Virus record (IMG/VR): IMGVR_UViG_3300025108_000398 | Location: 1-23,253 of that record | From: a virus | Reading direction: 5' to 3' (one strand) | DNA: 23,253 nt | In this document: positions 1-23,212 of the stretch, piece after piece | Layout: each line of letters opens with the position of its first letter | Position numbering within the stretch: position 1 is the stretch's first letter | The notes under the pieces: generated by a model | Told to the model about the DNA's origin: nothing | Seen by the model: only the letters and a program-made list of their open reading frames with translations | The model's database searches: none | Position numbers and translations under genes: made by a program

Positions 1-123
1 CACCAGAACAACTTTGAGGATGGAATTAAGTCAATGCGCCGTGTGTTAATGGATGATGCTATTTCTATTCGTTCTACAGTAGTTACACGAGGTAGTACAA
101 CCTCTTTTAGTGGCGGGTACTAA
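1..123 (+). CDS. C-terminal end of an upstream tail gene (partial)
   Basis: The reading frame is open from the first base to a TAA at 121-123, giving the last 40 residues of a protein that begins outside the window. The visible part ends in a Ser/Thr/Gly-rich tail (RGSTTSFSGGY). Its stop overlaps the next start as TAATG, so the two genes are probably translationally coupled. Position directly before a nozzle-like gene suggests a tail adaptor or tube protein, but this is inferred from context only; too little sequence is present to identify a family. Confidence 0.75.
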   Translation, partial: HQNNFEDGIKSMRRVLMDDAISIRSTVVTRGSTTSFSGGY

Positions 124-1670
124 TGGCTGACAATGTACGATCCTTTTTGGCTCCTTGTGCGGGTGGGTTGGTTAATAACCAAGACTACATTACACAGGCG
201 TCACAAATGCCGGGATCAGCTATCCGTATGATTAACTATGAGCCAGCTATTGAAGGCGGCTATAGACGTATTAGCGGTTACAGCAACAGCTATGGCACCG
301 TCCCAGGCCTAGATGGATCAGCAGTACTTGGTGTATCAGTATTCAATGGTTTAAATGATGGTATCTTTGCTTGTCGTAAGCCTGCTAGTGGTAACAACTA
401 CTTTCACTACTGGAGTAACTCAGCTTCTGCTTGGGTAACCCCAAGTACGGCTGGCTCTCCTACTATGGTAGGCGTTAATAAAGTACGCTTTGAGAAGTTT
501 AACTGGGGTACACCTAAGCTTATTCTTACTGATGGCGTTAACCCTGCAGCCTCGTGGAATGGTACAACATACACTCCGCTAAATAGTACAGAAGCCCCCA
601 GCGCCCCTAAGTTCTGTGAGACTTTCTCTAATCACCTCTTCCTTGCTGGTGACCCTAGTGAACCTAACATGCTGTACTTCTCTGCTCCACTGGATGAGAC
701 AGACTTTACTCCAGCAGGCGGCGCAGGTGTAATTAACGTAGGGTTTGACATTGTTACTATTAAGTCTTTCCGTGATCAGCTTTACATCTTTGGTGTCAAC
801 AACATCAAAAGACTAAACGGTAATAGTATTGCTGACTTTGTACTGTCTGACGTAACTAAAAACCTAGGCTGTGTATCTTCTGATGCAGTAGTAGAGTTTA
901 ACGGAGACATTCTCTTCTTAGGGCCAGATGGTATTAGACCCGTTACAGCTACAGAACGTATTGGTGATATTGAACTTGGTACTCTGTCTAAGCCTGTACA
1001 GTCTATCTTTGAGGCTTACTCTCGCAATGAAGACCTAGACAGTATTACTATGATGGTAGTAAATAGAAAGTCTCAGTTTAGATTGTTTTTCTCTAATGCT
1101 GAATCTCTGGGTCTTATTGGTTCTCTACGTAGAGCAGGACAACAGGGTTTAGGATTTGAGTACTCTCAGCTTGTAGGTGTAGAAGTATCATGTGGTGATA
1201 CAGGTTACATAGACACAGAAGAGTTTGTTATTCACGGCGATTCTACAGGCAAAGTACACAGACAAGAAACAGGTACATCTTTTAATACAGAGCCTATCTT
1301 CTCTTTGTACCAGACGCCTTACGTATATATGGATGATCCTATCGTAAGGAAAATCTTCTACGATGTACACACGTATATGAGATCAGAAGGTGAAGTCACA
1401 GTAAATATTGGTGTTGAGTATGACTACGGAGATAGTGACGTACTAATACCTTTTAACTTCGGGTTTACAACTGCGGGTGCAGCTTCCTACTGGGGTATTG
1501 CATCGTATGACACCAGTGATATTTATGATGGTAACCCTAGCCCAGTAAGAAAAACAAACCTCAACGGCTCAGGCAGTTCTATATCCCTGACCTACGTTAC
1601 AACAGAAGACCAACCAAGCCATACAATACAATCTTATGTTGTATCCTATGCGCTTGCAGACAGGAGATAA
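123..1670 (+). CDS. Probable tail nozzle / tube protein, beta-rich (P22 gp10 / T7 gp12-like role)
   Basis: A 515-aa protein with no membrane segment. It is rich in short beta-type stretches separated by Gly/Asn/Asp turns. The N-terminus (residues about 13-52) reads GGLVNNQDY, then MPGSAIRMINYEP, then GGYRRISGY. This is the 'PG-x-A-x-x-x-x-N-[FY]-x-P ... G-x-x-R-x-x-G-[FY]' opening seen in nozzle or stabilisation proteins of short-tailed phages. Hydrophobic-aromatic repeats such as LFLAGDPSEPNMLYFSAP, DQLYIFGVNNIKRL and GDILFLGPDGIRPV look like propeller blades. The family's role is to extend the tail tube below the portal and adaptor, carry fibres and plug the channel. The position just before the fibre genes agrees. 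AGGAG lies at 1662-1666, inside the end of this gene, and serves the fibre gene. The family assignment is by pattern and not by alignment. Confidence 0.6.
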   Translation: MADNVRSFLAPCAGGLVNNQDYITQASQMPGSAIRMINYEPAIEGGYRRISGYSNSYGTVPGLDGSAVLGVSVFNGLNDGIFACRKPASGNNYFHYWSNSASAWVTPSTAGSPTMVGVNKVRFEKFNWGTPKLILTDGVNPAASWNGTTYTPLNSTEAPSAPKFCETFSNHLFLAGDPSEPNMLYFSAPLDETDFTPAGGAGVINVGFDIVTIKSFRDQLYIFGVNNIKRLNGNSIADFVLSDVTKNLGCVSSDAVVEFNGDILFLGPDGIRPVTATERIGDIELGTLSKPVQSIFEAYSRNEDLDSITMMVVNRKSQFRLFFSNAESLGLIGSLRRAGQQGLGFEYSQLVGVEVSCGDTGYIDTEEFVIHGDSTGKVHRQETGTSFNTEPIFSLYQTPYVYMDDPIVRKIFYDVHTYMRSEGEVTVNIGVEYDYGDSDVLIPFNFGFTTAGAASYWGIASYDTSDIYDGNPSPVRKTNLNGSGSSISLTYVTTEDQPSHTIQSYVVSYALADRR

Positions 1671-1677
1671 TTAAGAT

Positions 1678-4600
1678 ATGTCAGGTTACACACGCCAATC
1701 CGTAGCGGATATTGTACCTACAGCTGTTGTACGGTCTGCACCCGTTAACGCTGAGTTTAATACTATTAGGGATGCCTTTGCTGCATCTACAGGTCACAAG
1801 CATGATGGCGGTACAGGAGAGGGTGGCTATGTCCCTCTAATTGCTGACTCAGACGGTAAGAATAAAGTTGTAGTCGATACAACCACTAATACTATTGATT
1901 TCTATGTTGAAATATCAAGTGTGCCTGTAGAGCAAATTAGTATTCGTGATGGTGTTCTTGTTCCTATCACAGATAACGACATTGATCTAGGTGCTGTTGG
2001 TTCAGAGTTTAAAGACTTATATATTGACGGTATTGGCTACATTGATACACTTGCAGTACACGAGAATGCTACAGTAGCTGGAACACTGAATGTTACTGGT
2101 GTCATTACAGCCCCTGCAGGTGTTGTTGCTAGTATCACGGGTAACGTCACAGGTAATCTCACAGGTGATGTAACTGGTGACTTGACTGGTGATGTAACCT
2201 CTACAGGTACTTCTACCTTTACTACAGTAGATATTAACGGTGGTAACATTGACGGTACTGTTATTGGTGCTACTACTCCAGCCGCTGCTGACTTCACTAC
2301 AATGGACACTACAGGTAACGCATCTGTAGGTGGTACGTTTGGTGTAACTGGCACATCTACCTTCACAGGTGCTATGTCTGCAGGTAGCCTTACAACTACA
2401 GGTAACTCCACCCACGCTACTGTAGACATTAACGGCGGTGTTATTGATGGCACAATCATTGGTGCTTCTAGTGCTGCTGCTGGTAGCTTTACAACTGTAT
2501 CGACATCTGGACAAGCCACACTGGCAACTGCTGACATTAATGGCGGTACTATTGATGGTTCAGTTATTGGTGGTGCAACTCCACAGGCTGTGACAGGTAC
2601 AACCATAACAGCTAACACAGGCTTTGCTGGTGCGCTTACAGGTAACGTCACAGGTAACGTAACGGGAAATCTTACAGGCGATGTAACTGGAGATGTAACA
2701 GGTGATCTGACTGGGAATGTTACTGCAGCTAGTGGTACTTCCTCATTTACAGATGTGACCATCAACGGCACACTAAATATGAATGCTGGTACGACTGCTA
2801 CCATCACCAATCTTTCTGCCCCCACAAACGCCAATGATGCAGCACGAAAGGTAGACGTTGATAACGCTGTAGCTAACCTTGTAGATAGCGCCCCCGGTAC
2901 ACTGGACACGTTGAATGAGTTAGCGGCTGCGCTGGGCGATGATGCAGACTTTGCCAACACAATTACAACTAGCATAGCAACCAAGTTACCACTAGCAGGT
3001 GGAACCATGTCGGGTGCTATTGCTATGGGTACATCTAAGATTACTGGTCTAGGTAATCCAACTGCAGCACAAGACGCAGTAAGTAAGAGTTATTCTGACA
3101 CACAGGATGCTACTAAGCTGAACCTGTCTGGTGGTACGATGACAGGTAACATTGTACTGGGCGCTAACAAGGCTACCTCTACTGCTACACCCTCCGCTGC
3201 AGATGATCTGACACGCAAAGGTTACGTTGATAGCATCCTTGGTTCAGCTACGAGTGCCGCTACAAGTGCTTCTGCCGCTGCTACATCAGCCAGTAGTGCC
3301 GCTACAAGTGAAACTAACGCAGGTAACTCTGCCGCTGCAGCCGCTGCATCTTATGACAACTTCGATGATCGTTACCTTGGTGCTAAGTCTTCTGCTCCAT
3401 CTGTAGATAACGATGGCGATGCACTTGTAACTGGTGCTTTGTATTGGAACTCTACAAGCGATGAACTGTACGTTTGGGATGGCAGCAACTGGCAACAGGG
3501 TAGCTTCACTGCAGGTTCACTCTTAGCGAATGTACTTGAAGACACTACTCCTCAGCTTGGTGGTGACCTAGACCTTAATGGTTCTGACATTACAGGTACT
3601 GGTGCTATTGATATTACTGGTACAGTCTCTGCAGGTGCAGTTACTTACACTGCTACAGATGGTACAGCAGGTCAGTTCTTGCAGACGGATGGTTCAGGCA
3701 ACACTACCTTTGCATCTGTAGCAGCCCCTAGCATTAATAACCTAAGCGATGGTTACTCTGATACTTTCTCTATTGGGCTTGGTAGCGGGGCGCTGCAGTT
3801 TGATGATGGTGGTAACTTTAGTATAGGTGTTGGCAAGAACGCCTTGCGGCGGAATGCGAGTGGTACATCGAATGTAGCTATAGGCTATGAGTCTATGGAA
3901 GGCGTAAGTGGGAATAGTCATAGCAGCAACACAGCTATTGGCTATCAGTCTGGCTTCAGCGTCACTACAGGTGGCAACAACTTCTTTGGCGGCAAGCAAG
4001 CTGGGTTCAATAATACTACGGGCCACAGAAACTTCTTCGGCGGTTCTCTAGCTGGTTACAGTAATACAGGAGGTGCTTATAACGTAGCTATTGGCGACAC
4101 GGCGTTGTATCGTGTCACAACAGGTTCTACTAACGTAGCCATCGGCTCTGCGGCTCTCTATAACATGACTACAGGCACCTACAATCTTGGGATGATTAAT
4201 GGGCTAAACTCAGTTACTACGGGTAGTAACAACATTGGCATAGGTAAAGACGCAGGAGACAAACTAACTACTCCAGATGGTAACGTGGCTATAGGCAAAG
4301 AGGCATTAAAATATAGCGTAACAGGTACGGCTACTGTAGCACTGGGCGAAGGCGCTCTTCGTGGCGCTATTGGTAACTCCCACAGCAGCAATACTGCCAT
4401 TGGTTATCAAGCTGGTAAGGATATTACTACAGGGGGCGAGAACTTCTTTGGTGGGTATCAAGCTGGGTACGCTAATACTACAGGCATTAATAATACCTTT
4501 ACGGGGTATTCGGCTGGTAGAGCCAACACTACAGGCGCTGACAATACTGCTATTGGTTGGAATGCTCTATCGTCAAACATTGCTGGAGGTCAAAACGTAG

Positions 4601-4968
4601 CTTTAGGCGACAGCGCAGGTAGGTTCACTAGCAACTCTTACAATAGTGTGTTTGTCGGTCACGGTGCGGGTAGTAACTTAACTTCAACCTATACTTACAA
4701 CAACATTATTATGGGGTATAGTGCGCAGCCTTCTAGTACCTCAGCCACAAACGAAATCACGCTGGGCAACAACAGCATCACAGCCTTCCGCATACCGGGC
4801 CTTAACATTAGTGCTGCATCCAACAGCTTCACTATCAACGGTTGGACGATCACCGAAAGCGGTGGGTCTCTGTACTTCGCTACAGGCGGCTCAAACAAGA
4901 TGAAACTAGACGCAAGCGGCAACTTGGATGTTGTAGGTAACGTCAACTCTAACGCAACCATTAGCTAA
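1678..4968 (+). CDS. Long tail fibre, repeat-rich, without a visible C-terminal chaperone
   Basis: A 1096-aa protein, very rich in Gly, Thr, Ser, Ala and Asn. Residues 1-140 look like a virion-anchoring head (GHKHDGGTGEG at about 39-49; a DNDIDLGAVGSEFKDLYIDG segment typical of phage fibres). Residues about 155-350 hold beta-helix-like repeats with two blocks of the pentapeptide [VL]-T-G-[ND]. Residues about 390-510 carry familiar fibre phrases (LDTLNELAAALGDD, LPLAGGTMSGAI, LSGGTMTGNI). Residues about 520-560 are an Ala/Ser/Thr-rich stretch suited to a trimeric coiled coil, followed by YDNFDDRYLGAKSSAP. Residues about 713-1025 are about 18 copies of an N-x-[AF]-[IG]-G-x-x-A-G type repeat. 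The end (KMKLDASGNLDVVGN) is where an S74 intramolecular chaperone often begins, but the protein stops there. The likely role is host-surface binding as a trimer. AGGAG at 1662-1666 supports the ATG chosen. Confidence 0.85.
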   Translation: MSGYTRQSVADIVPTAVVRSAPVNAEFNTIRDAFAASTGHKHDGGTGEGGYVPLIADSDGKNKVVVDTTTNTIDFYVEISSVPVEQISIRDGVLVPITDNDIDLGAVGSEFKDLYIDGIGYIDTLAVHENATVAGTLNVTGVITAPAGVVASITGNVTGNLTGDVTGDLTGDVTSTGTSTFTTVDINGGNIDGTVIGATTPAAADFTTMDTTGNASVGGTFGVTGTSTFTGAMSAGSLTTTGNSTHATVDINGGVIDGTIIGASSAAAGSFTTVSTSGQATLATADINGGTIDGSVIGGATPQAVTGTTITANTGFAGALTGNVTGNVTGNLTGDVTGDVTGDLTGNVTAASGTSSFTDVTINGTLNMNAGTTATITNLSAPTNANDAARKVDVDNAVANLVDSAPGTLDTLNELAAALGDDADFANTITTSIATKLPLAGGTMSGAIAMGTSKITGLGNPTAAQDAVSKSYSDTQDATKLNLSGGTMTGNIVLGANKATSTATPSAADDLTRKGYVDSILGSATSAATSASAAATSASSAATSETNAGNSAAAAAASYDNFDDRYLGAKSSAPSVDNDGDALVTGALYWNSTSDELYVWDGSNWQQGSFTAGSLLANVLEDTTPQLGGDLDLNGSDITGTGAIDITGTVSAGAVTYTATDGTAGQFLQTDGSGNTTFASVAAPSINNLSDGYSDTFSIGLGSGALQFDDGGNFSIGVGKNALRRNASGTSNVAIGYESMEGVSGNSHSSNTAIGYQSGFSVTTGGNNFFGGKQAGFNNTTGHRNFFGGSLAGYSNTGGAYNVAIGDTALYRVTTGSTNVAIGSAALYNMTTGTYNLGMINGLNSVTTGSNNIGIGKDAGDKLTTPDGNVAIGKEALKYSVTGTATVALGEGALRGAIGNSHSSNTAIGYQAGKDITTGGENFFGGYQAGYANTTGINNTFTGYSAGRANTTGADNTAIGWNALSSNIAGGQNVALGDSAGRFTSNSYNSVFVGHGAGSNLTSTYTYNNIIMGYSAQPSSTSATNEITLGNNSITAFRIPGLNISAASNSFTINGWTITESGGSLYFATGGSNKMKLDASGNLDVVGNVNSNATIS
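2140..2208 (+). repeat. Pentapeptide repeat block 1 in the fibre
   Basis: Codes for GN-V-TG, GN-L-TG, GD-V-TG, GD-L-TG and GD-V-T in tandem, a four-to-five-residue period of [VL]-T-G-[ND]. Such blocks usually fold as a regular beta-helix or spiral in phage fibres. DNA copies differ mostly at third codon positions. Confidence 0.85.
2641..2724 (+). repeat. Pentapeptide repeat block 2 in the fibre
   Basis: A second, longer block of the same [VL]-T-G-[ND] unit (seven units), about 500 bases after the first. Between the blocks are three copies of a longer unit with the core [VA]-D-I-N-G-G-x-I-D-G-[TS]-[VI]-I-G. The shaft therefore alternates two repeat types. Confidence 0.85.
3814..4752 (+). repeat. 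About 18 tandem 17-residue head-type repeats in the fibre
   Basis: Each unit follows N-[VTF]-[AFS]-[IGL]-G-x-x-[AS]-[LG]-x-x-x-T-T-G-x, for example NVAIGDTALYRVTTGST and NTAIGYQAGKDITTGGE. The pattern resembles the left-handed beta-roll head repeats of trimeric adhesins such as YadA. In phages it occurs in distal fibre regions. A run of repeats beginning GNSHSSNTAIGYQ near 3910 recurs near 4372, so a larger nine-unit block appears duplicated. Confidence 0.8.
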
Positions 4969-4983
4969 TAGGAGCATCCGAGG

Positions 4984-7335
4984 ATGGCTATAAAAATTGC
5001 AGGCACTACAGTAGTAGATGACTCACGAGGTCTTACTAACATTGCAACAGTAGACGCAACTACAGCGGCTGCTATTAGTGCTGCAGGTGTTGGTGGTGGT
5101 GGGGAGCATGACTTTGTTGCTAGTGGTGCTATAACTAATGGTGATGTAGTCGGTTTAAATGCTGATGGTACTGTTAGTGTAGTTGCTGAAACAAATGTTC
5201 CAGATTCTGCTGGTTCTGCTGTTGTATTTGAGAGTGCTAGTGTTGTCCATACTTCAGCTACCTATGACTCTATTAATAAAAAAGTTATCATAGTTTATAG
5301 GGATGGAGGCAATTCTTATTATGGTACAGCAGTAGTTGGAACTGTATCTGAAAGCACTATTAGCTTTGGGACACCTGTTGTATTTGAGAGTGCTAATTCC
5401 CTCTTTAATTCAGCAGTATATGACGCTAATGCTCAGAAGGTTGTTATTGCTTATAGGGATGGAGGCAATTCTTATTATGGCACAGCTATTGTGGGTACAG
5501 TAAGTGGAACGTCTATTTCCTTTGGTTCCCCTACTGTATTTGAGAGCGCTAGGACTGATTTTATCTCAATCGTATATGACGCTAACGCTCAGAAAGTTGT
5601 CATAGCGTATCAAGATGACGGGAATTCAAGCTACGGTACAGCTATTGTGGGTACAGTAAGTGGAACGTCTATTTCCTTTGGTAGTGCAGCTGTATTTGAG
5701 AGTGCGGATACGCCCAATATATCAGCTACTTTTGACTCTACTACTCAGAAAGTTGTCATAGCCTATACTGATGCAGGCAACTCCTACCACGGCACTGCTA
5801 TTGTAGGAACGGTGAGTGGAACATCTATTTCCTTTGGTAGCGCTGTTGTATTTGAGAATTCTGAAACTAGCAGTTACATTTCAGCAGTATACGATGATAA
5901 TGCTCAGAAGGTTGTTATTGCTTATAGGAATGACGGGAATTCAAGCTACGGTACTGCTGTTGTTGGTACAGTATCAGGCACATCTATAAGTTTCGGTACT
6001 CCTGTAGTATTTGATGGAGGTACAAACGCATTTTATGTTGCAGCTGCCTATAATGCCGATGCCCAGAGTGTTGTTATAGCTTATAAGGATACTGGAAACA
6101 ATAACTACGGCACTGCTATTGTAGGAACGGTGAGCGGAAGCTCTATTAGCTTTGGGTCTCCTGTTGTTGTTGTTGGTAGTAATTTTAGTTACATTTCAGC
6201 AGTATATGACGCTAATGCTCAGAAGGTTGTTATTGCTTATGAGGATGAAAGTAACTCAAGCTACGGTACTGCTGTCGTATTCACAAACGCCTATACTTCA
6301 ACCAACGCCTCATCCTACATAGGCGTAGCAGCGGAGGACATCTCAGATACAGCTACTGGTGCTGTCACTATTGATGGTGGTGTTAATGAGCAGACTGTAA
6401 ATAGTTATGATCTAGCTAATGCTAGTTATGATAGTGTTAGCTTCAGTGTGTCGGCTCAAGAAGGTAATCCAAAGAGTATTTCTTTTAAGCCTGACGGAAC
6501 CAAAATGTTTGTTGTAGGTGCAACTGGGTCAGATATTAACGAGTACAATCTATCTTCTGCGTGGGATGTTTCTAGTAGTTCTTATGTTCAGAACTTCAGT
6601 GTTTCTGCTCAGATTGGTCAGGTAGGCGGTGCAGTTTTCAAACCAGATGGTACTAAAGTGTACATCACAGATATTAACGGTGATGATGTAAATGAGTATG
6701 ATCTAAGCACAGCTTGGGACATTTCCACTGCATCTTACACTCAAAACTTTAGTATTGCTTCACAGGGTACAGCACCTTGGTCTGTATTTTTTAAGACTGA
6801 TGGTACTAAGATGTATTTTATAGATAGTACTAACGATGTTTATGAATACAATCTAAGCACGGCTTGGAATATATCAACAGCCTCTTATGTGCAAGGTTTG
6901 GATGTTAGCAGTGTACTTAGTTTTTCTACATGTCTGTTTTTTACTCCTGACGGAACCAAAATGTTTCTTGCAGGTCAATCTTTCAGAAATGTAAGTGAGT
7001 ACAATTTAAGCACAGCTTGGGATATTTCCACTGCATCTTACATTCGCAATTTTAATGTTATCTCTCAAGAATTCTATCCAAACGCTTTAACCTTTGGTAA
7101 CAACGGCACTAAAATGTATGTAGTAGGTTCCCAAACAGACACCATCTACCAATACTCCACAGGCACATTCGGTGGTTACACTATTAACGTTTCACAGTTT
7201 GTAGCAGATGACGGAAGCCTTACCACAACCAATAATGGACGCAAGATTGCAAGAAGTATTTCCACAACAGAGTTACTAATCGACAGCGCAATGACTGGTG
7301 ATGAGACAAACGAATATCTTGGCTCTCTGGTATAA
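4984..7335 (+). CDS. Beta-propeller receptor-binding protein A with inserted second propeller
   Basis: A 783-aa paralogue of the next gene. Residues 1-67 are a shared N-terminal module (MAIKIAGTTVVDDSRGLTN ... GDVVGLNADGTVSVV). Residues about 75-435 hold seven repeats of 52-53 residues with the core V-V-I-A-Y-x-D-x-G-N-S-x-Y-G-T-A-[IV]-V-G-T-V-S-G-T-S-I-S-F-G. This repeat number and spacing suit a seven-bladed propeller. A shared C-terminal module starts at YIGVAAED (about 442) and ends with TTNNGRKIARSI ... NEYLGSLV. Within it, after GGVNE (about 468), sits a domain of about 260 residues with five 50-51-residue repeats centred on [DN]-G-T-K-M-[FY] and L-S-T-A-W-D-I-S-T-A-S-Y. The fibre's neighbours and the repeat architecture point to a tail-tip or fibre-tip adhesin. 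AGGAG at 4970-4974 precedes the ATG. The exact fold and ligand are not shown. Confidence 0.75.
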   Translation: MAIKIAGTTVVDDSRGLTNIATVDATTAAAISAAGVGGGGEHDFVASGAITNGDVVGLNADGTVSVVAETNVPDSAGSAVVFESASVVHTSATYDSINKKVIIVYRDGGNSYYGTAVVGTVSESTISFGTPVVFESANSLFNSAVYDANAQKVVIAYRDGGNSYYGTAIVGTVSGTSISFGSPTVFESARTDFISIVYDANAQKVVIAYQDDGNSSYGTAIVGTVSGTSISFGSAAVFESADTPNISATFDSTTQKVVIAYTDAGNSYHGTAIVGTVSGTSISFGSAVVFENSETSSYISAVYDDNAQKVVIAYRNDGNSSYGTAVVGTVSGTSISFGTPVVFDGGTNAFYVAAAYNADAQSVVIAYKDTGNNNYGTAIVGTVSGSSISFGSPVVVVGSNFSYISAVYDANAQKVVIAYEDESNSSYGTAVVFTNAYTSTNASSYIGVAAEDISDTATGAVTIDGGVNEQTVNSYDLANASYDSVSFSVSAQEGNPKSISFKPDGTKMFVVGATGSDINEYNLSSAWDVSSSSYVQNFSVSAQIGQVGGAVFKPDGTKVYITDINGDDVNEYDLSTAWDISTASYTQNFSIASQGTAPWSVFFKTDGTKMYFIDSTNDVYEYNLSTAWNISTASYVQGLDVSSVLSFSTCLFFTPDGTKMFLAGQSFRNVSEYNLSTAWDISTASYIRNFNVISQEFYPNALTFGNNGTKMYVVGSQTDTIYQYSTGTFGGYTINVSQFVADDGSLTTTNNGRKIARSISTTELLIDSAMTGDETNEYLGSLV
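5152..5183 (+). repeat. 32-bp perfect direct repeat, copy 1
   Basis: Identical to 7516-7547 in the following paralogue. It encodes GLNADGTVSV at the junction between the shared N-terminal module and the propeller, whereas the DNA before and after it differs at many synonymous sites. Confidence 0.9.
5200..6285 (+). repeat. Seven tandem 52-residue propeller repeats (protein A)
   Basis: The conserved G-T-A core recurs with its preceding codon at 5320, 5476, 5632, 5788, 5947, 6106 and 6262, spaced 156, 156, 156, 159, 159 and 156 bases. Several stretches are identical or nearly identical in DNA between units, for example around 5490-5520 and 5646-5680, so unit gain, loss or exchange by recombination is plausible. 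Confidence 0.9.
6391..7170 (+). other. Inserted five-repeat propeller-like domain in protein A
   Basis: Five repeats centred on F-x-x-[DN]-G-T-K start at 6484, 6637, 6790, 6940 and 7093, a period of 150-153 bases. Each is followed by a [ED]-Y-[ND]-L-S-[ST]-A-W-[DN]-[IV]-S segment except the last. The N-terminal edge (VNSYDLANASY) and C-terminal edge (TIYQYSTGTF) look like halves of one blade, which would close the ring. The paralogue at 7348-8883 has no such segment at the matching place. Confidence 0.75.
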
Positions 7336-7347
7336 GGTGGTACTCTA

Positions 7348-8883
7348 ATGGCTATAAAGATTGCAGGTACTACAGTAGTAGATAATAGCAGAGGCTTAAC
7401 TAACATTGCCACTGTTGATGCAACAACTGCAACAGCTATAGGTAATGCTGGCGTAGGAGGTGGAGGTACACACGACTTTGTAGCTAGTGGTGCTATAGCT
7501 AATGGCGATGTAGTGGGTTTAAATGCTGATGGTACTGTTAGTGTAGTGTCTCCTAGTGGGGTTGCTTCAGCCTTGGGGTCAGAGACAGTTTTTTCAACCG
7601 CTACCACATCTAATTTCTCGGCTACTTTTGATAGTAATTCTAATAAGATTGTCGTTGTTTATCGTGTTAGCGGAACTAGCCTAGCTGTAGTTGGAACTGT
7701 ATCAGGGACAACAATATCGTTTGGCTCTCCTGTTGTTTTTGATAGTAATCCTCTAGTGTATCCTTCTATTGTATTTGATAGCAGTGCTAATAAAATTGTT
7801 GTAGCTTGGAAAGATTCTAACAATAATTACGGAACTGCTATAGTAGGAACGGTAAGTGGTACTTCTATTAGTTTCGGTACAAAGGTAGTATTTGAAAGCG
7901 CCAGCACAGGTTATATATCCGCTACTTATGATGTAAACTCTAATAAAGTTGTAATAGCTTATTCAGATTTAGCTAACTCATTTTACGGTACGGCTATAGT
8001 AGGAACTGTAAGTGGTACTTCTATTAGTTTTGGTAGCCCTACTGTTTTCAATGCGGGTCAAACAGTACTTTGTGAAGCTGCTTATGATAGCTATAGTAAT
8101 AAAGTAATTATAGCATACAGAGATAATGGTAACTCTAGTTATGGTACTGCTATAGTAGGAACGGTAAGTGGTACTTCTATTAGTTTTGGGTCTGAGGTAG
8201 TATTTGAAAGCTCTTTTATAAGTAGTATATCCTCTACTTTTGATAGTAAAAACAATAAGGTTGTCATCTGTTACAACGCTTCTAGCTTGGGCAAGGCTAT
8301 CGTTGGTGAAGTTAGTGGTACATCTATAACTTTTGGTAGTGCCGACACTTTTAGAAGTGCATCAGCAGGAGAGATTTCGGTTACGTTTGACTCAAGTTCT
8401 AACAAAGTAGTTATTTCTTACGACTACAACTACGATGGATTTATAGTAGCAGGAACGGTAAGCGGTACATCTATCACATTTGATGCAGCGGAAACTTACA
8501 CGTTAGGACGAAGCCAAGAGACTTCAACTACTTTTGATAGCAACTCAAATAGGGTGGTTACTTTTTTTAGGGCGCAGAATAATTCAGACTATGGTACATC
8601 TGTGGTCTATAAACCTTCTTCAACCAACGCCTCTAACTACATCGGCATAGCAGACGGAGCTACCTCTAACTCAGCTACAGGTAAGATCACTATCAATGGT
8701 GGTGTTAACGAAGGGCAGTCAAGCCTAGCTGTAGGCACAACCTACTACGTTGCTGACAACGGTGACCTACAAACAACTAACAACGGACGCAAGATAGGCA
8801 AAGCTATCAGTGCATCAGAATTACAAGTCAAAACTAAACTCACGGGTAGTGAGATGAACGAATACTTAGGAGGTTTGGTCTAA
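7348..8883 (+). CDS. Beta-propeller receptor-binding protein B
   Basis: A 511-aa paralogue of the preceding gene. The N-terminal 67 residues are almost the same (MAIKIAGTTVVDNSRGLTN). Seven repeats follow (about 75-420), with cores such as VVAWKDSNNNYGTAIVGTVS and VIAYSDLANSFYGTAIVGTV, at 49-52-residue spacing. The C-terminal module begins YIGIADGAT and continues GGVNEGQSSLAVGTTYYVAD to NEYLGGLV. It is the plain, uninterrupted version of the module that is split in protein A. No enzyme motif, membrane segment or signal is visible. The likely role is a virion adhesin or fibre-tip protein used together with or instead of protein A. AAGGTGG just after the previous stop serves as ribosome binding site. 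The stop overlaps the next start (TAATG at 8881-8885). Confidence 0.75.
   Translation: MAIKIAGTTVVDNSRGLTNIATVDATTATAIGNAGVGGGGTHDFVASGAIANGDVVGLNADGTVSVVSPSGVASALGSETVFSTATTSNFSATFDSNSNKIVVVYRVSGTSLAVVGTVSGTTISFGSPVVFDSNPLVYPSIVFDSSANKIVVAWKDSNNNYGTAIVGTVSGTSISFGTKVVFESASTGYISATYDVNSNKVVIAYSDLANSFYGTAIVGTVSGTSISFGSPTVFNAGQTVLCEAAYDSYSNKVIIAYRDNGNSSYGTAIVGTVSGTSISFGSEVVFESSFISSISSTFDSKNNKVVICYNASSLGKAIVGEVSGTSITFGSADTFRSASAGEISVTFDSSSNKVVISYDYNYDGFIVAGTVSGTSITFDAAETYTLGRSQETSTTFDSNSNRVVTFFRAQNNSDYGTSVVYKPSSTNASNYIGIADGATSNSATGKITINGGVNEGQSSLAVGTTYYVADNGDLQTTNNGRKIGKAISASELQVKTKLTGSEMNEYLGGLV
7516..7547 (+). repeat. 32-bp perfect direct repeat, copy 2
   Basis: Second copy of the sequence at 5152-5183, in the same codon register and at the same structural boundary of the paralogue. 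Confidence 0.9.
7570..8610 (+). repeat. Seven tandem propeller repeats (protein B)
   Basis: The V-G-T-V-S-G core lies at 7690, 7843, 7999, 8155, 8302 and 8449, spaced 153, 156, 156, 147 and 147 bases. A seventh unit ends as YGTSVVY near 8610. Units 2 to 4 share long nearly identical DNA around the A-I-V-G-T-V-S-G-T-S-I-S-F codons. Units 5 and 6 are shorter and more diverged. Confidence 0.88.
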
Positions 8884-9143
8884 TGAAAAAGACTATAGTA
8901 GAAACAGCGACAGGCTTATCAAAGTATATCTTTGAGGATGCAGCAGAAATAGTGATGTCTCCTGATAACATTGTTACGCCTGACTTCATTATCGGTGACT
9001 TGAATGCTGTTAATGCAACGCTGCATGAGAACGTAACACCACCAGAAGACTGGCAGGGTAATCGTTACACCTTTGATGGTACTACATGGGAAGTTAATCC
9101 TGACTGGGTAGACCCTGCGACACTTGAAGATGAGGGCGAGTAA
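8883..9143 (+). CDS. Small conserved-looking fibre-cassette protein (function unknown)
   Basis: An 86-aa acidic, soluble protein coupled at both ends: its ATG overlaps the stop of protein B and its TAA overlaps the ATG of protein C. A strong TAGGAGG at 8867-8873 lies nine bases before the start. The sequence has KYIFEDAAEIV near the start and ENVTPPEDWQGNRYTFDGTTW in two adjoining parts near the end. I recall this kind of 'DW-x-G-x-x-Y-x-F-D-G-x-x-W' ending from small genes beside phage fibres, but I cannot name a family. Tight coupling between two adhesin genes suggests an assembly helper, cap or accessory of the adhesins. No function is demonstrated. Confidence 0.8.
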   Translation: MKKTIVETATGLSKYIFEDAAEIVMSPDNIVTPDFIIGDLNAVNATLHENVTPPEDWQGNRYTFDGTTWEVNPDWVDPATLEDEGE

Positions 9144-10633
9144 TGGCTTTATTAACTGAATTAATTGCGTCTAATTCTACGGCGTTGACTAGTGCGGGTA
9201 AAATTGAACTTACCACTTCTGAGGATGTTGTTGAGGGTGATACTCTATCCTTCAATTTCAATACGGGTAAGGTTGAGAAAACTACTAGAATAGGTGGTTC
9301 TCGTGAAATATTTCATTCTGATGTGGGGTTTACATATAGGCTGTATGAAGTCCTCTACATACCAGAAATAGATAAAACAGCATTTTTGATGTATAACGCT
9401 ACCAGCAACAACATGGGCGTTATGTTGGCAACTCAAAACGCAAGCACAGGTGCGTACACTTTTGGTAGTTATCATTACCTGAGCAGCGGTAATTACGATG
9501 GGACAACACTTGCTTACGATAGTAATGTAAACAGACTTTTAGCTTTTTATCGTACAAACAGCACACTTAGCTGTAGGTCGTGTTCTATAAGTGGAACGAC
9601 ACTGACAACAGCAAGCACCGCCACTATCGACACTAGTGTCAGTATGGGTCCCGCATATAAGCTAGCAGCTTACCATAACGCATCTGATAATTACACATAT
9701 ATTATGTACGATCAAAGCAACGGTTATGCCGTTACGAGGGTAGGAACTATTGGAGCTTCATCTCAATCTTGGTCAGGTGCTGACGGACACTCCAGCAATA
9801 GATTTGGTAATAACTATCCAAATGCGTTTGCTATAACCAGTGTAGGAAGTACCGTAATATTTCACTGGTCAAAAAGTGGTAAAAGGGCTGTAGCTGGTCA
9901 ATGGAATGGAGGTTCTTGGACTTGGGGCAGTGAAACTTTTTTAACCACTGACCAGTCTGCCAACAACGGCCCGGCAATGGCCTTTAGGCTTAGTGGCACA
10001 GGCACCTCCAACGATGCGGCATATCTTGCAAAGTATGGAAACAATACTGGTGTATTTCAGTACACTGTGAGTGGAACCACAATATCACCTGCTAACGAGT
10101 ACGGCGTACATTCTAATTCTGGCGAGGGTTGTGTTGGAGGGTATGACCCATCTAATAATAAATATTACTCATTTACTGAGTATAATAATAACGGCGTGTT
10201 GGCTTATAATAAAACAGCAAGTAGCACTTGGCTGGGTAATTTTGAAGATATAGTATATACCAATAACTCCAGTAATATAACGTGCGGAAGCCTTAACACA
10301 CAGACAGGTTTTTTTACCGTTGGGAATGATACCAATATGGAGGCTTACTCGCATAGGCCAATTGAAGATAACTACAAGACTTTTATAGGTGTTGCAGCCG
10401 AGGCGGCATCTGCAAACACTGCGGTAAAAATAAACAACGCTGGAACTATTGCAACGGGTCTCTCGGGACTAACGCCGACTACGGCTTATCGGATTAAGTT
10501 TGATGGAACCTTTGAGTACGACACCAGTTTTGCATATGGCTTATTAAATAGCACCAATAGAGCAAGGATAACTGGTATTGCACTAACGTCTACTACAATG
10601 TTAATGTTAAATGACTTTTTGACTAACCCCTAA
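9143..10633 (+). CDS. Beta-propeller receptor-binding protein C (diverged)
   Basis: A 496-aa third member of the cassette, much more diverged. The N-terminal part keeps the same element in altered form (EDVVEGDTLSFNFNTGKVEK against GDVVGLNADGTVSVV). About seven aromatic and Gly/Asn-rich repeats can be counted, for example AYDSNVNRLLAFYRTNST, VGSTVIFHWSKSGKRAVAGQ and YDPSNNKYYSFTEYNNNGVL. A C-terminal module starting FIGVAAEAASANTAVKINN ends the protein, but it is longer and different after that point (LLNSTNRARITGIALTSTTM). The protein is probably another virion adhesin with a distinct ligand. The start is set by TAATG overlap with the 86-aa gene and a GAGGGCGAG stretch just upstream. The last codons lie inside a 12-bp inverted repeat that reaches the next gene's ribosome binding site. 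Confidence 0.7.
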   Translation: MALLTELIASNSTALTSAGKIELTTSEDVVEGDTLSFNFNTGKVEKTTRIGGSREIFHSDVGFTYRLYEVLYIPEIDKTAFLMYNATSNNMGVMLATQNASTGAYTFGSYHYLSSGNYDGTTLAYDSNVNRLLAFYRTNSTLSCRSCSISGTTLTTASTATIDTSVSMGPAYKLAAYHNASDNYTYIMYDQSNGYAVTRVGTIGASSQSWSGADGHSSNRFGNNYPNAFAITSVGSTVIFHWSKSGKRAVAGQWNGGSWTWGSETFLTTDQSANNGPAMAFRLSGTGTSNDAAYLAKYGNNTGVFQYTVSGTTISPANEYGVHSNSGEGCVGGYDPSNNKYYSFTEYNNNGVLAYNKTASSTWLGNFEDIVYTNNSSNITCGSLNTQTGFFTVGNDTNMEAYSHRPIEDNYKTFIGVAAEAASANTAVKINNAGTIATGLSGLTPTTAYRIKFDGTFEYDTSFAYGLLNSTNRARITGIALTSTTMLMLNDFLTNP

Positions 10634-14753: not shown

Positions 14754-15527
14754 ATGGCAGAGATTAGCTTAGCAGATGAGATTGTAGCACGAGCTACAGA
14801 TATACCTAGCATAGGTGGACGTAGTAAGAGCGCTAGTGGTATCATGTCTCGTAAGGTCATTGATGCTGGCTCTGAGGACTACGACATAGAAAGCTACATT
14901 GGTGACTATCTAAATACTATACGTGAAGAGCGTACTCCTATGTCGTTTGATGCTTATGATGCTGAGGATATTGATGCACGGGTAGATGCTATGGATGCAC
15001 AGGCTCAGAGTGGAGCTATGTCTGAGCTTACCAGTGGTACTTACTATCAAGAGAATGGCGCAATAGCACAGGGTAGCTATTACGATGTAGCTACACGTCT
15101 GTCTGGTGACCTTATGAATGACTTTGATCTAACTAAAGAACAGGCAGCAGGTCTTGTGGGTAACCTGGCGTATGAGACTGGTAACTTTAAGTACGCTCAA
15201 GAGATTACACCAACAGTAGAGGGTAGCCGTGGCGGGTATGGTATAGCTCAATGGACTGGACCTAGACGGAAAGCTTTTGAAAGCTGGGCAACTAGTCAAG
15301 GCTTAGACCTCTCTTCTTATGAAGCTAACTACGGGTATCTTAAAAAGGAATTAAGTAGTAAGGATGCTGTCATTGGTGACATTGGCATGAACACTATCGC
15401 TAAACTAAAAGAAGCAGGTACTGTTGAAGACGCCACAGAGCTTGTCAGTGAGTACTACTTACGTCCTGGGAAGCCCAATATAAATAAGCGGTTGAGTAGT
15501 GCTGCAGGCGTATACAGTCTATTATAA
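14754..15527 (+). CDS. Tail lysozyme / peptidoglycan hydrolase of the ejection apparatus
   Basis: A 257-aa protein. Residues 1-100 are an acidic N-terminal part with no recognised domain. Residues about 108-255 match the phage tail lysozyme pattern (Pfam Phage_lysozyme2 type): a helix ending GLVGNLAYETGNF with the expected catalytic Glu at about 141, then GGYGIAQWTGPRRKAFESWA at about 160-179, and a C-terminal helical part with VSEYYLRPGKPN. The family cleaves glycan strands so that the tail or ejected proteins can cross the cell wall at infection. In T7 this activity is a domain of the giant gp16; here it is a separate gene just before two giant proteins. The upstream spacer has only a weak purine-rich ribosome binding site. 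Confidence 0.85.
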   Translation: MAEISLADEIVARATDIPSIGGRSKSASGIMSRKVIDAGSEDYDIESYIGDYLNTIREERTPMSFDAYDAEDIDARVDAMDAQAQSGAMSELTSGTYYQENGAIAQGSYYDVATRLSGDLMNDFDLTKEQAAGLVGNLAYETGNFKYAQEITPTVEGSRGGYGIAQWTGPRRKAFESWATSQGLDLSSYEANYGYLKKELSSKDAVIGDIGMNTIAKLKEAGTVEDATELVSEYYLRPGKPNINKRLSSAAGVYSLL

Positions 15528-22500: not shown

Positions 22501-22518
22501 GGCTTAACTACAAGCCTT
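22499..22518. repeat. 7-bp inverted repeat at the 3' end of phoH
   Basis: AAGGCTT (22499-22505) and AAGCCTT (22512-22518) form a perfect stem with a six-base loop. The stop codon of phoH lies within it, and its outer edge overlaps the -35 box of promoter P2. No U-run follows on the minus strand, so termination would be weak. Confidence 0.7.
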
Positions 22519-23212
22519 CCTTCATAAACACCTTGACCCACTCAGCGCAGATCCCACTACGTACAATGTCATCAATGCCAAACTCTACTACGGGAACATC
22601 TAGCATGTGCTTCTTAGCTAGGTGTATGATCTTAGCTAGACCAGACGTACCCTTCAAGTCAGACTGTTGTATGTCACCATTGAGGACGATAGTGCTACCC
22701 TCACCTACACGTGTCAACAACATCTTGATCTCTGGTATGTCTATGTTCTGTGCTTCGTCTACAATAATGAACGCATTGTCAAAGCTACGTCCACGCATCA
22801 ACGCTAGTGTAGCTACTTCAATGTTACCGTTCTTTACACCTGTATCAACAGCGCCCCTACCTAAGTGTTTAATCAGTACGTCTAGCACAGGCAGCGCCCA
22901 AGGTTGTGCTTTCTCTTCTAGTGTACCGGGTAGGAACCCAATGTCTTTACCTACAGCTACGTGAGGACGTGTGATAACAATCTTGTCAATCTCTTTGCGT
23001 GTGTACAAGTCTGCTGCACATGTAGCTGTAACGTAAGTCTTACCTGTACCAGCAGGGCCAAGTATTAGCACCTGCTTGCTAGAGGCAATGGCGTTGATTA
23101 GCTTACATTGATTGTCAGTCTTAGGTACTATGCCAGAGGTAGGCTTGCTAGCTGCACCCTTGTAGGTTGTCTTACGGCGGGTACGTCTTGGTTTAACTAA
23201 TTCTTCTTGCAC
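22508..23212 (-). CDS. phoH: PhoH-family ATPase
   Basis: A 234-aa P-loop ATPase of the PhoH family. The N-terminus is basic (KPRRTRRKTTYK). Walker A is GPAGTGKT at 52-59. A conserved ITRPHVAVGKDIGFLPGTLE follows at about 80-99, and Walker B is FIIVDEAQ at 148-155. The segment GDIQQSDLKGTSGLA near 190 matches the usual G-D-x-x-Q-x-D family motif. Length is normal for phage PhoH, which lacks the extra N-terminal domains of some bacterial forms. Cellular role is unsettled; it is tied to phosphate stress in bacteria and to RNA helicase or RNase activities in some members. phoH is common in marine phages. The start is a GTG at 23212, with GGAG seven bases upstream, because an in-frame stop lies only a few codons before it. 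Confidence 0.95.
   Translation of the reverse strand: MQEELVKPRRTRRKTTYKGAASKPTSGIVPKTDNQCKLINAIASSKQVLILGPAGTGKTYVTATCAADLYTRKEIDKIVITRPHVAVGKDIGFLPGTLEEKAQPWALPVLDVLIKHLGRGAVDTGVKNGNIEVATLALMRGRSFDNAFIIVDEAQNIDIPEIKMLLTRVGEGSTIVLNGDIQQSDLKGTSGLAKIIHLAKKHMLDVPVVEFGIDDIVRSGICAEWVKVFMKEGL

Follow-up and report, generated by a model that had tools for sequence, protein, structure and literature searches.

To our knowledge, the phage receptor-binding tips of known structure are homotrimers as a rule. Beta-propellers occur in phage receptor binders. For example, Gp45 of Staphylococcus phage phi11 is a homotrimer with five-bladed propellers, in which a blade is closed by the N-terminal strand; it is the product of one gene, has a coiled-coil stem, and no slots or head swapping have been reported for it (PMC4901313). 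Likewise, PhiKZ gp131C (4GBF; cited in PMC4901313) is a seven-bladed propeller at the periphery of a phage tail, but it comes from one gene and a myovirus baseplate, its role is unproven, and its likeness to the proteins described below lies in the seven-bladed fold and the place on the tail. A heterotrimeric tail has a precedent in the virophage DSLV2, where three consecutive tail proteins form a 1:1:1 heterotrimer; the available portion of that report describes T4 gp37-like fibres on a virophage, with no propellers, cement-like frame or swap cassette (PMC12724248). Small trimeric beta domains are found among the phage cement proteins. E217 gp24, which is named in the PF22758 description, has a beta-tulip fold and an extended N-terminal arm and is a trimer in the solved virion (PMC10329688), as is the capsid stabilisation protein (CSP) of HFTV1 (PMC12494034). 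Cement proteins of this kind (PF09956, PF22758, HFTV1 CSP) sit on the capsid, are homotrimeric and have no inserted propeller.

Here we describe a cassette in 23,253 nt of a marine virus, record IMGVR_UViG_3300025108_000398; this whole stretch of DNA is called the window. The cassette encodes the proteins P1, P2 and P3 and a small protein, S. Each of the three larger proteins would consist of a frame of about 110 residues, made up of its N- and C-terminal ends, and a binding head inserted in one loop of the frame; the head is usually a seven-bladed propeller, and the place of a gene in the triplet is its slot. In our judgement P1, P2 and P3 probably make up a hetero-oligomeric, and most plausibly heterotrimeric, tail-fibre tip with exchangeable heads that are all present at once.

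Among cultured phages, almost no relatives of the P1 seven-bladed propeller (propeller A) were found beyond Lentibacter phage ICBM2 (Cobavirinae, MF431616), which has homologues of P2 (gene 49), of S (gene 48) and of the second propeller of P1, propeller B, as a separate protein (gene 51). Genes 47-51 of this phage differ in that each fibre-like gene has its own chaperone gene, the pieces stand in another order and there is no framed-propeller triplet; no virion proteomics was found in the main text of the ICBM2 paper. The tandem arrangement, which a preliminary description of the window had called unusual, is so among cultured phages but is common in metagenomic viral contigs. No description of framed-propeller triplets was found in the literature searched. 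Within that literature the combination of slot-locked cement-like frames with freely exchanged heads is new; phage propeller binders and a 1:1:1 tail heterotrimer were already known.

Gene order and the three proteins of the window

The window holds a tail and internal-protein module, nearly all of it on the + strand, and the virus is probably a short-tailed phage. The trunk gene is followed on the + strand by P1, P2, S and P3, and then by genes for small and internal proteins (Table 1). The phrog_5107 label of the gene upstream of the trunk, 'amidase', is doubtful; its position and its relatives, including the gene preceding the trunk in locus L201 (40% identical), suggest a tail nozzle protein. 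Further downstream, a phage tail lysozyme domain (PF18013, 1.4e-24) is encoded at 14754-15527 among internal virion proteins, and a PhoH-like ATPase gene lies on the minus strand at the end of the window (22508-23212). A host among the Rhodobacteraceae is only a guess, because it rests on the 1196-aa protein of the window, whose nearest cultured relative, at 35%, belongs to Roseobacter phage CRP-9; nine relatives among genome contigs, mostly metagenome bins, do not settle the host. One propeller relative stands in an isolate genome (L172, a Pseudomaricurvus alkylphenolicus scaffold), which is possibly a prophage and could offer a culturable system.

Table 1. Coordinates of the cassette, its parts and the preceding genes (positions in the window)
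Feature	Position	Strand	Basis or remark
Nozzle-like tail protein	123..1670	+	phrog_5107 8.9e-60; upstream of the proposed device
Tail-fibre trunk, separate gene, 1096 aa	1678..4968	+	phrog_38058 tail fibre 1.6e-19; directly precedes P1
P1, slot 1, 783 aa	4984..7335	+	frame with propeller A (seven blades) and propeller B (five units)
P1 N-end (aa 1-67), frame part 1	4984..5184	+	93% to L008 slot 1
P1 propeller A, seven blades (aa 68-438)	5185..6297	+	AF2 pLDDT about 97; structural matches; 45% to L008 slot 1
P1 C-terminal module, first part (aa 439-472)	6298..6399	+	opens YIGVA; 91% to L008 slot 1
P1 propeller B, five four-stranded units (aa 473-737)	6400..7194	+	DSSP; pLDDT about 96; inside C-terminal module; 58% to L008 slot 1
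P1 C-end (aa 738-783), slot-1 specific	7195..7335	+	93% to L008 slot 1, 28% to P2
P2, slot 2, 511 aa	7348..8883	+	frame, seven-unit propeller
P2 N-end (aa 1-67), frame part 1	7348..7548	+	91% to L008 slot 2
P2 propeller (aa 68-430)	7549..8637	+	53% to P1 propeller A, 53% to L008 slot 2
P2 C-terminal module and C-end (aa 431-511)	8638..8883	+	last 50 aa 80% to L008 slot 2
S, 86 aa, chaperone-like helper (putative)	8883..9143	+	between P2 and P3; homologous to N-half of ICBM2 gene 48
P3 (496 aa), third gene; propeller diverged, ends related	9143..10633	+	family profile match; AF2 propeller-like

Direct repeats of 147-159 nt run throughout P1 and P2, far above chance (repeat families D1-D6). P1 has seven units of about 52 aa and then five of about 51 aa, and P2 has seven units of the first kind (read by eye). 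P3, the most diverged of the three, shows almost no DNA periodicity, but about seven groups of strands can be made out in its AlphaFold2 model (pLDDT 61.5). The N-terminal element is GDVVGLNADGTV in P1 and P2 and GDTLSFNFNTGKV in P3, and the C-terminal modules open with YIGVA, YIGIA and FIGVA in P1, P2 and P3, respectively; in P2 the propeller is flanked by GDVVGLNADGTV and by the module YIGIA...TTNNGRKIGKAISASEL. The preliminary description, made from the letters and open reading frames, had read three proteins with about seven repeats between related ends, and the open reading frames, repeats and end motifs bear this out. It had, however, taken P1 for a single-array protein and the cassette for three genes only. 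P1 has a second array, of five 51-aa units, which splits the C-terminal module that is contiguous in P2, and the gene of S lies inside the cassette.

The AlphaFold2 monomer model of P1 (44 aligned sequences, mean pLDDT 87) is mostly around 97 for residues 71-439, with low confidence at the far ends. Propeller A is modelled as seven four-stranded blades, which most likely form a closed ring. Its structural matches in the PDB include YncE (Z 32.4 over 308 residues), a designed seven-bladed protein (Z 29.4), RACK1 (about 28-29) and the Photorhabdus lectins PLL2, PLL5, PHL and PLL (Z 29-30). PLL, PLL2 and PHL are likewise seven-bladed and bind glycans, but they are free bacterial lectins with a sequence identity of 9-12%. 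The seventh unit of propeller A lacks an outer strand, and from sequence and DSSP the N-terminal strand can fill this place and close the ring. The second array forms five four-stranded units in the model, and closure of propeller B into a ring is putative. Hypothetical proteins of about 1,200 aa in the Roseobacter phages CRP-13 (L177, 4481-8122) and CRP-9 (L178, 4427-8152) match propeller B. The model of P3 still retrieves propellers and the same Photorhabdus lectins. The seven-bladed fold proposed earlier holds well for P1 and at low confidence only for P3. Whole-protein searches of P1, P2 and P3 against Pfam, PHROGs and PDB sequences gave no informative match because the repeats swamp the signal and the frame, being split, is recognised only once the head has been cut out. 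Similarly, a mixed alignment including P3 held no conserved stretch usable for scanning.

P1 and P2 had been called close to each other, which is true of their N-ends (91% identical) and of their propellers (53%), but not of their last 50 residues (28%). The C-ends are therefore slot-specific and the N-ends are not; slot specificity within the window rests on the C-ends because the N-ends of P1 and P2 are nearly the same. The comparison with L008 gives high identities at the ends and lower ones in the propellers of both proteins (Table 1), and the L008 counterpart of P2 has two propellers (A and B) where P2 has one. The position matching P3 is taken in L008 by a Gly-rich protein without a frame. 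P3 is 81-86% identical to its relative in L019 except over the first 20 aa; its body is found alone in that locus, behind an N-terminus of the P1/P2 type.

Locked slots, moving heads and the frame domain

Retrieval of related loci started from propeller A, and seven IMG/VR scans gave 314 loci for counting, including two from other sources; an eighth scan sought further bare frames. Conserved ends with variable centres, as seen initially in the window, recur across about 300 related IMG/VR loci. The slots were compared in 68 dereplicated triplets with short N-ends (204 genes), taking the first 38 and last 46 residues as the frame and the central 330 residues as the head; an earlier, cruder definition of the frame had blurred the slots, which this one resolved. 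The nearest frame in another locus came from the same slot for 197 of the 204 genes (label shuffles: mean 68, maximum 104), and the result was replicated for 105 of 105 genes from 35 loci absent from the first comparison. Only in 7 cases was the nearest frame a paralogue in the same locus. The heads behave otherwise, as their nearest relative was in the same slot for 77 of 204 (shuffle mean 68, P 0.13). Divergence is correlated among the frames of the three slots (Mantel r 0.35-0.61, lineage Z) but not among the heads. Between distant lineages the order of the slots is not clearly the same (24 of 33 against 11 expected, with one locus per loose frame cluster).

The variation observed is an exchange of whole heads. 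For example, slot 1 of L145 and slot 3 of L122 are 41-66% identical in DNA at the ends and mostly 86-100% in the centre, and one head, 95-97% identical, recurs in L122 slot 3, L197 slot 2 and L145 slot 1 on contigs from different metagenomes, these contigs being repetitive and of a kind in which repeats can cause misassembly. Swaps confined to the centre, which had been proposed as a check, are thus found at the DNA level. The first suggestion, a duplicated gene in which only the binding part then changed, is too simple an account: the three frames are old and distinct, and recombination moves the heads from slot to slot and from virus to virus.

In three relatives the frame pieces are directly joined with no propeller between them. 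Slot 1 of L120 (373 aa) has a contiguous frame followed by a Gly_rich_2 head (PF21722), slot 2 of L201 is a headless frame of 117 aa in a complete ORF (8777-9127), and slot 2 of L061 is a headless frame of 110 aa that is cut by the contig end. The head is therefore an insertion in a loop of a frame of roughly 110 residues, and propeller B of P1 reads as a second insertion into the same frame.

Profile scans were run with 18 frames, of which 14 had their heads excised in silico and 4 were natural. The matches were weak: PF09956 (Phage_cement_2) in 12 of 18 (E <= 0.1, best 3e-5), PF22758 (Phage_cement) in 7 of 18 and PF23982 (XM1 gp53 minor capsid) in 5 of 18, with a natural bare frame scoring 21.1 bits against PF09956, below the curated cut-off of 24. 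The best PDB sequence match was the HFTV1 capsid stabilisation protein (E 0.023), and the frames also match PHROG head-decoration families. The frame, which would also be a small beta domain, is thus likely, though not proven, to belong to the phage cement (beta-tulip) family, and it is most likely a trimer-forming domain of that type.

Gene number, trunk fusion and the putative helper gene

Among dereplicated clusters complete on both sides, one framed gene was found in 35, two in 6, three in 64 and four in 2, and clusters containing a gene of less than 530 aa had three framed genes in 56 of 66. The 64 triplets come from a handful of lineages, and the count is therefore not one of 64 independent events. 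Exceptions to one or three include L086, L097 and L322 (two genes) and L099 and L231 (four). In L007, which has two framed genes in an arrangement like that of L008, the third place is taken by a Gly-rich protein with its own chaperone. L097 has only two framed genes, the second of which (7211-8698) combines a slot 2-like N-end with a slot 3-like C-end and looks like a fusion of the two slots. In L099 (5495-7627) and L231 the additional gene is long (711 and 656 aa, respectively), which gives the look of a triplet with a single-gene device beside it.

Phages that encode several receptor binders in tandem are known, and the cassette could be read in this way, as three adhesins that each form a homotrimer of their own and make the virion a mosaic or serve as a stock for switching; the preliminary description, with several specificities on one virion or such a stock, comes near to this. 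Related tandem genes with variable binding parts are what such adhesins would show. They need no slot-specific ends, however, and need not number three, headless forms such as those of L201 and L061 would not be kept among them, and a repeat search of the cassette gave no obvious inversion element, so that we regard independent adhesins as improbable. From that earlier reading, several heads at once is the better part. The stock for switching is unsupported because the ends are slot-locked, headless frames are kept and the gene number is one or three.

The first 150 aa of the trunk give a further line of evidence. In eight loci the trunk N-terminus and a framed propeller form one ORF, which is physical continuity with the fibre, and the framed gene is single in 8 of 8 (some cut by the contig end); where the first 150 aa lie on a separate gene, a triplet is mostly next. 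A trimeric device that is homomeric in the fused form and heteromeric in the split form would show this pattern. The fusion also supports the tail-fibre context. In the window's trunk, the C-terminal third (3700-4680, aa about 680-1000) carries tandem 14-18-residue repeats of the form N-[VTF]-[AF]-[IGL]-G-x-x-A, which resemble the head repeats of YadA-type adhesins; the L008 counterpart is longer (1305 vs 1096 aa).

Slot-locked frames could also arise from three different homotrimers stacked in series, with slot 1 on the trunk, slot 2 on slot 1 and slot 3 on slot 2, each frame being locked by its differing neighbours. Such a stack would account for the headless frames that are kept and for a trunk directly upstream of the cassette. 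In a chain, however, nothing would favour three members or disfavour two, as against the observed 35/6/64/2, the trunk-fused versions contain exactly one frame, and the frame resembles cement proteins that form one-layer trimers; stacking is in our view unlikely. Capsid decoration, in which the frames would be cement proteins placing propellers on the head at three-fold positions, has in its favour the matches to capsid cement and head-decoration families. We consider it very improbable, as eight loci have the same framed propeller as the C-terminus of a tail-fibre trunk, and the cassette lies downstream of nozzle and trunk genes and includes a gene resembling those of tail chaperones.

That gene, S, is present with 61 of 64 triplets and 28 of 35 single genes, which is one S per device whatever the gene number. 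S is related to the S149 protein of L034, and both S149 and ICBM2 gene 48 carry PF16778 (Phage_tail_APC); the C-terminal APC domain of PF16778 has no match in S. The presence of this tail assembly chaperone domain in its longer homologues suggests that S may assist folding or assembly. A conserved 124-aa protein, absent from the window, sits in L100 (6314-6685), L056 (6145-6516) and L201 (6617-6988) between slot 1 and a trunk-like protein ending GKAIAMA[IM]VFG; it had no Pfam or PHROG match where tested and is a candidate adaptor.

A proposed tip with exchangeable heads

In the heterotrimeric tip proposed here, the gene arrangement would set the symmetry. Where trunk and frame are one polypeptide, the device is encoded by one gene and would be a homotrimer. 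Where the trunk is separate, as in the window, three slot-locked frames would form a heterotrimer, possibly aided by S in its assembly, and place three different heads side by side. The window has three consecutive tail genes, as DSLV2 has, and the slot-locked frames and gene number point to a 1:1:1 complex of P1, P2 and P3. Recombination swaps heads from slot to slot and from virus to virus with the frames left where they are, and therefore one virion would carry a changeable set of three specificities.

The blades are consistent with heads turned outward. Across 197 blade units, each of 52 residues, variation is highest at positions 14, 16, 20 and 43-50; the P1 secondary structure places these in the B-C and D-A loops, and the A-B and C-D loops are conserved. 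The two variable loops share one face in an antiparallel blade. Because the propeller begins with an outer strand and its last blade stops at the third strand, both chain ends would exit on the opposite, conserved face, toward the frame, and the variable face may point away from the virion. Glycan binding by the heads is the natural guess, because they resemble lectins in fold.

In its broadest form, towards which we lean slightly, the reading is that an obligate heterotrimer arose from a homotrimeric tip, that its three slot-locked cement-like frames accept any head from a shared pool (propellers, Gly-rich, none), and that these widespread, almost uncultured tailed viruses recognise their hosts by a combinatorial code of three places, which head exchange rewrites. 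If the heterotrimeric tip with exchangeable heads is true, a domain like that of capsid cement would have been recruited as an adaptor at the fibre tip, combinatorial host recognition would be open to direct test, hundreds of currently unnamed viral genes could be annotated, and the device would explain how marine viruses combine specificities.
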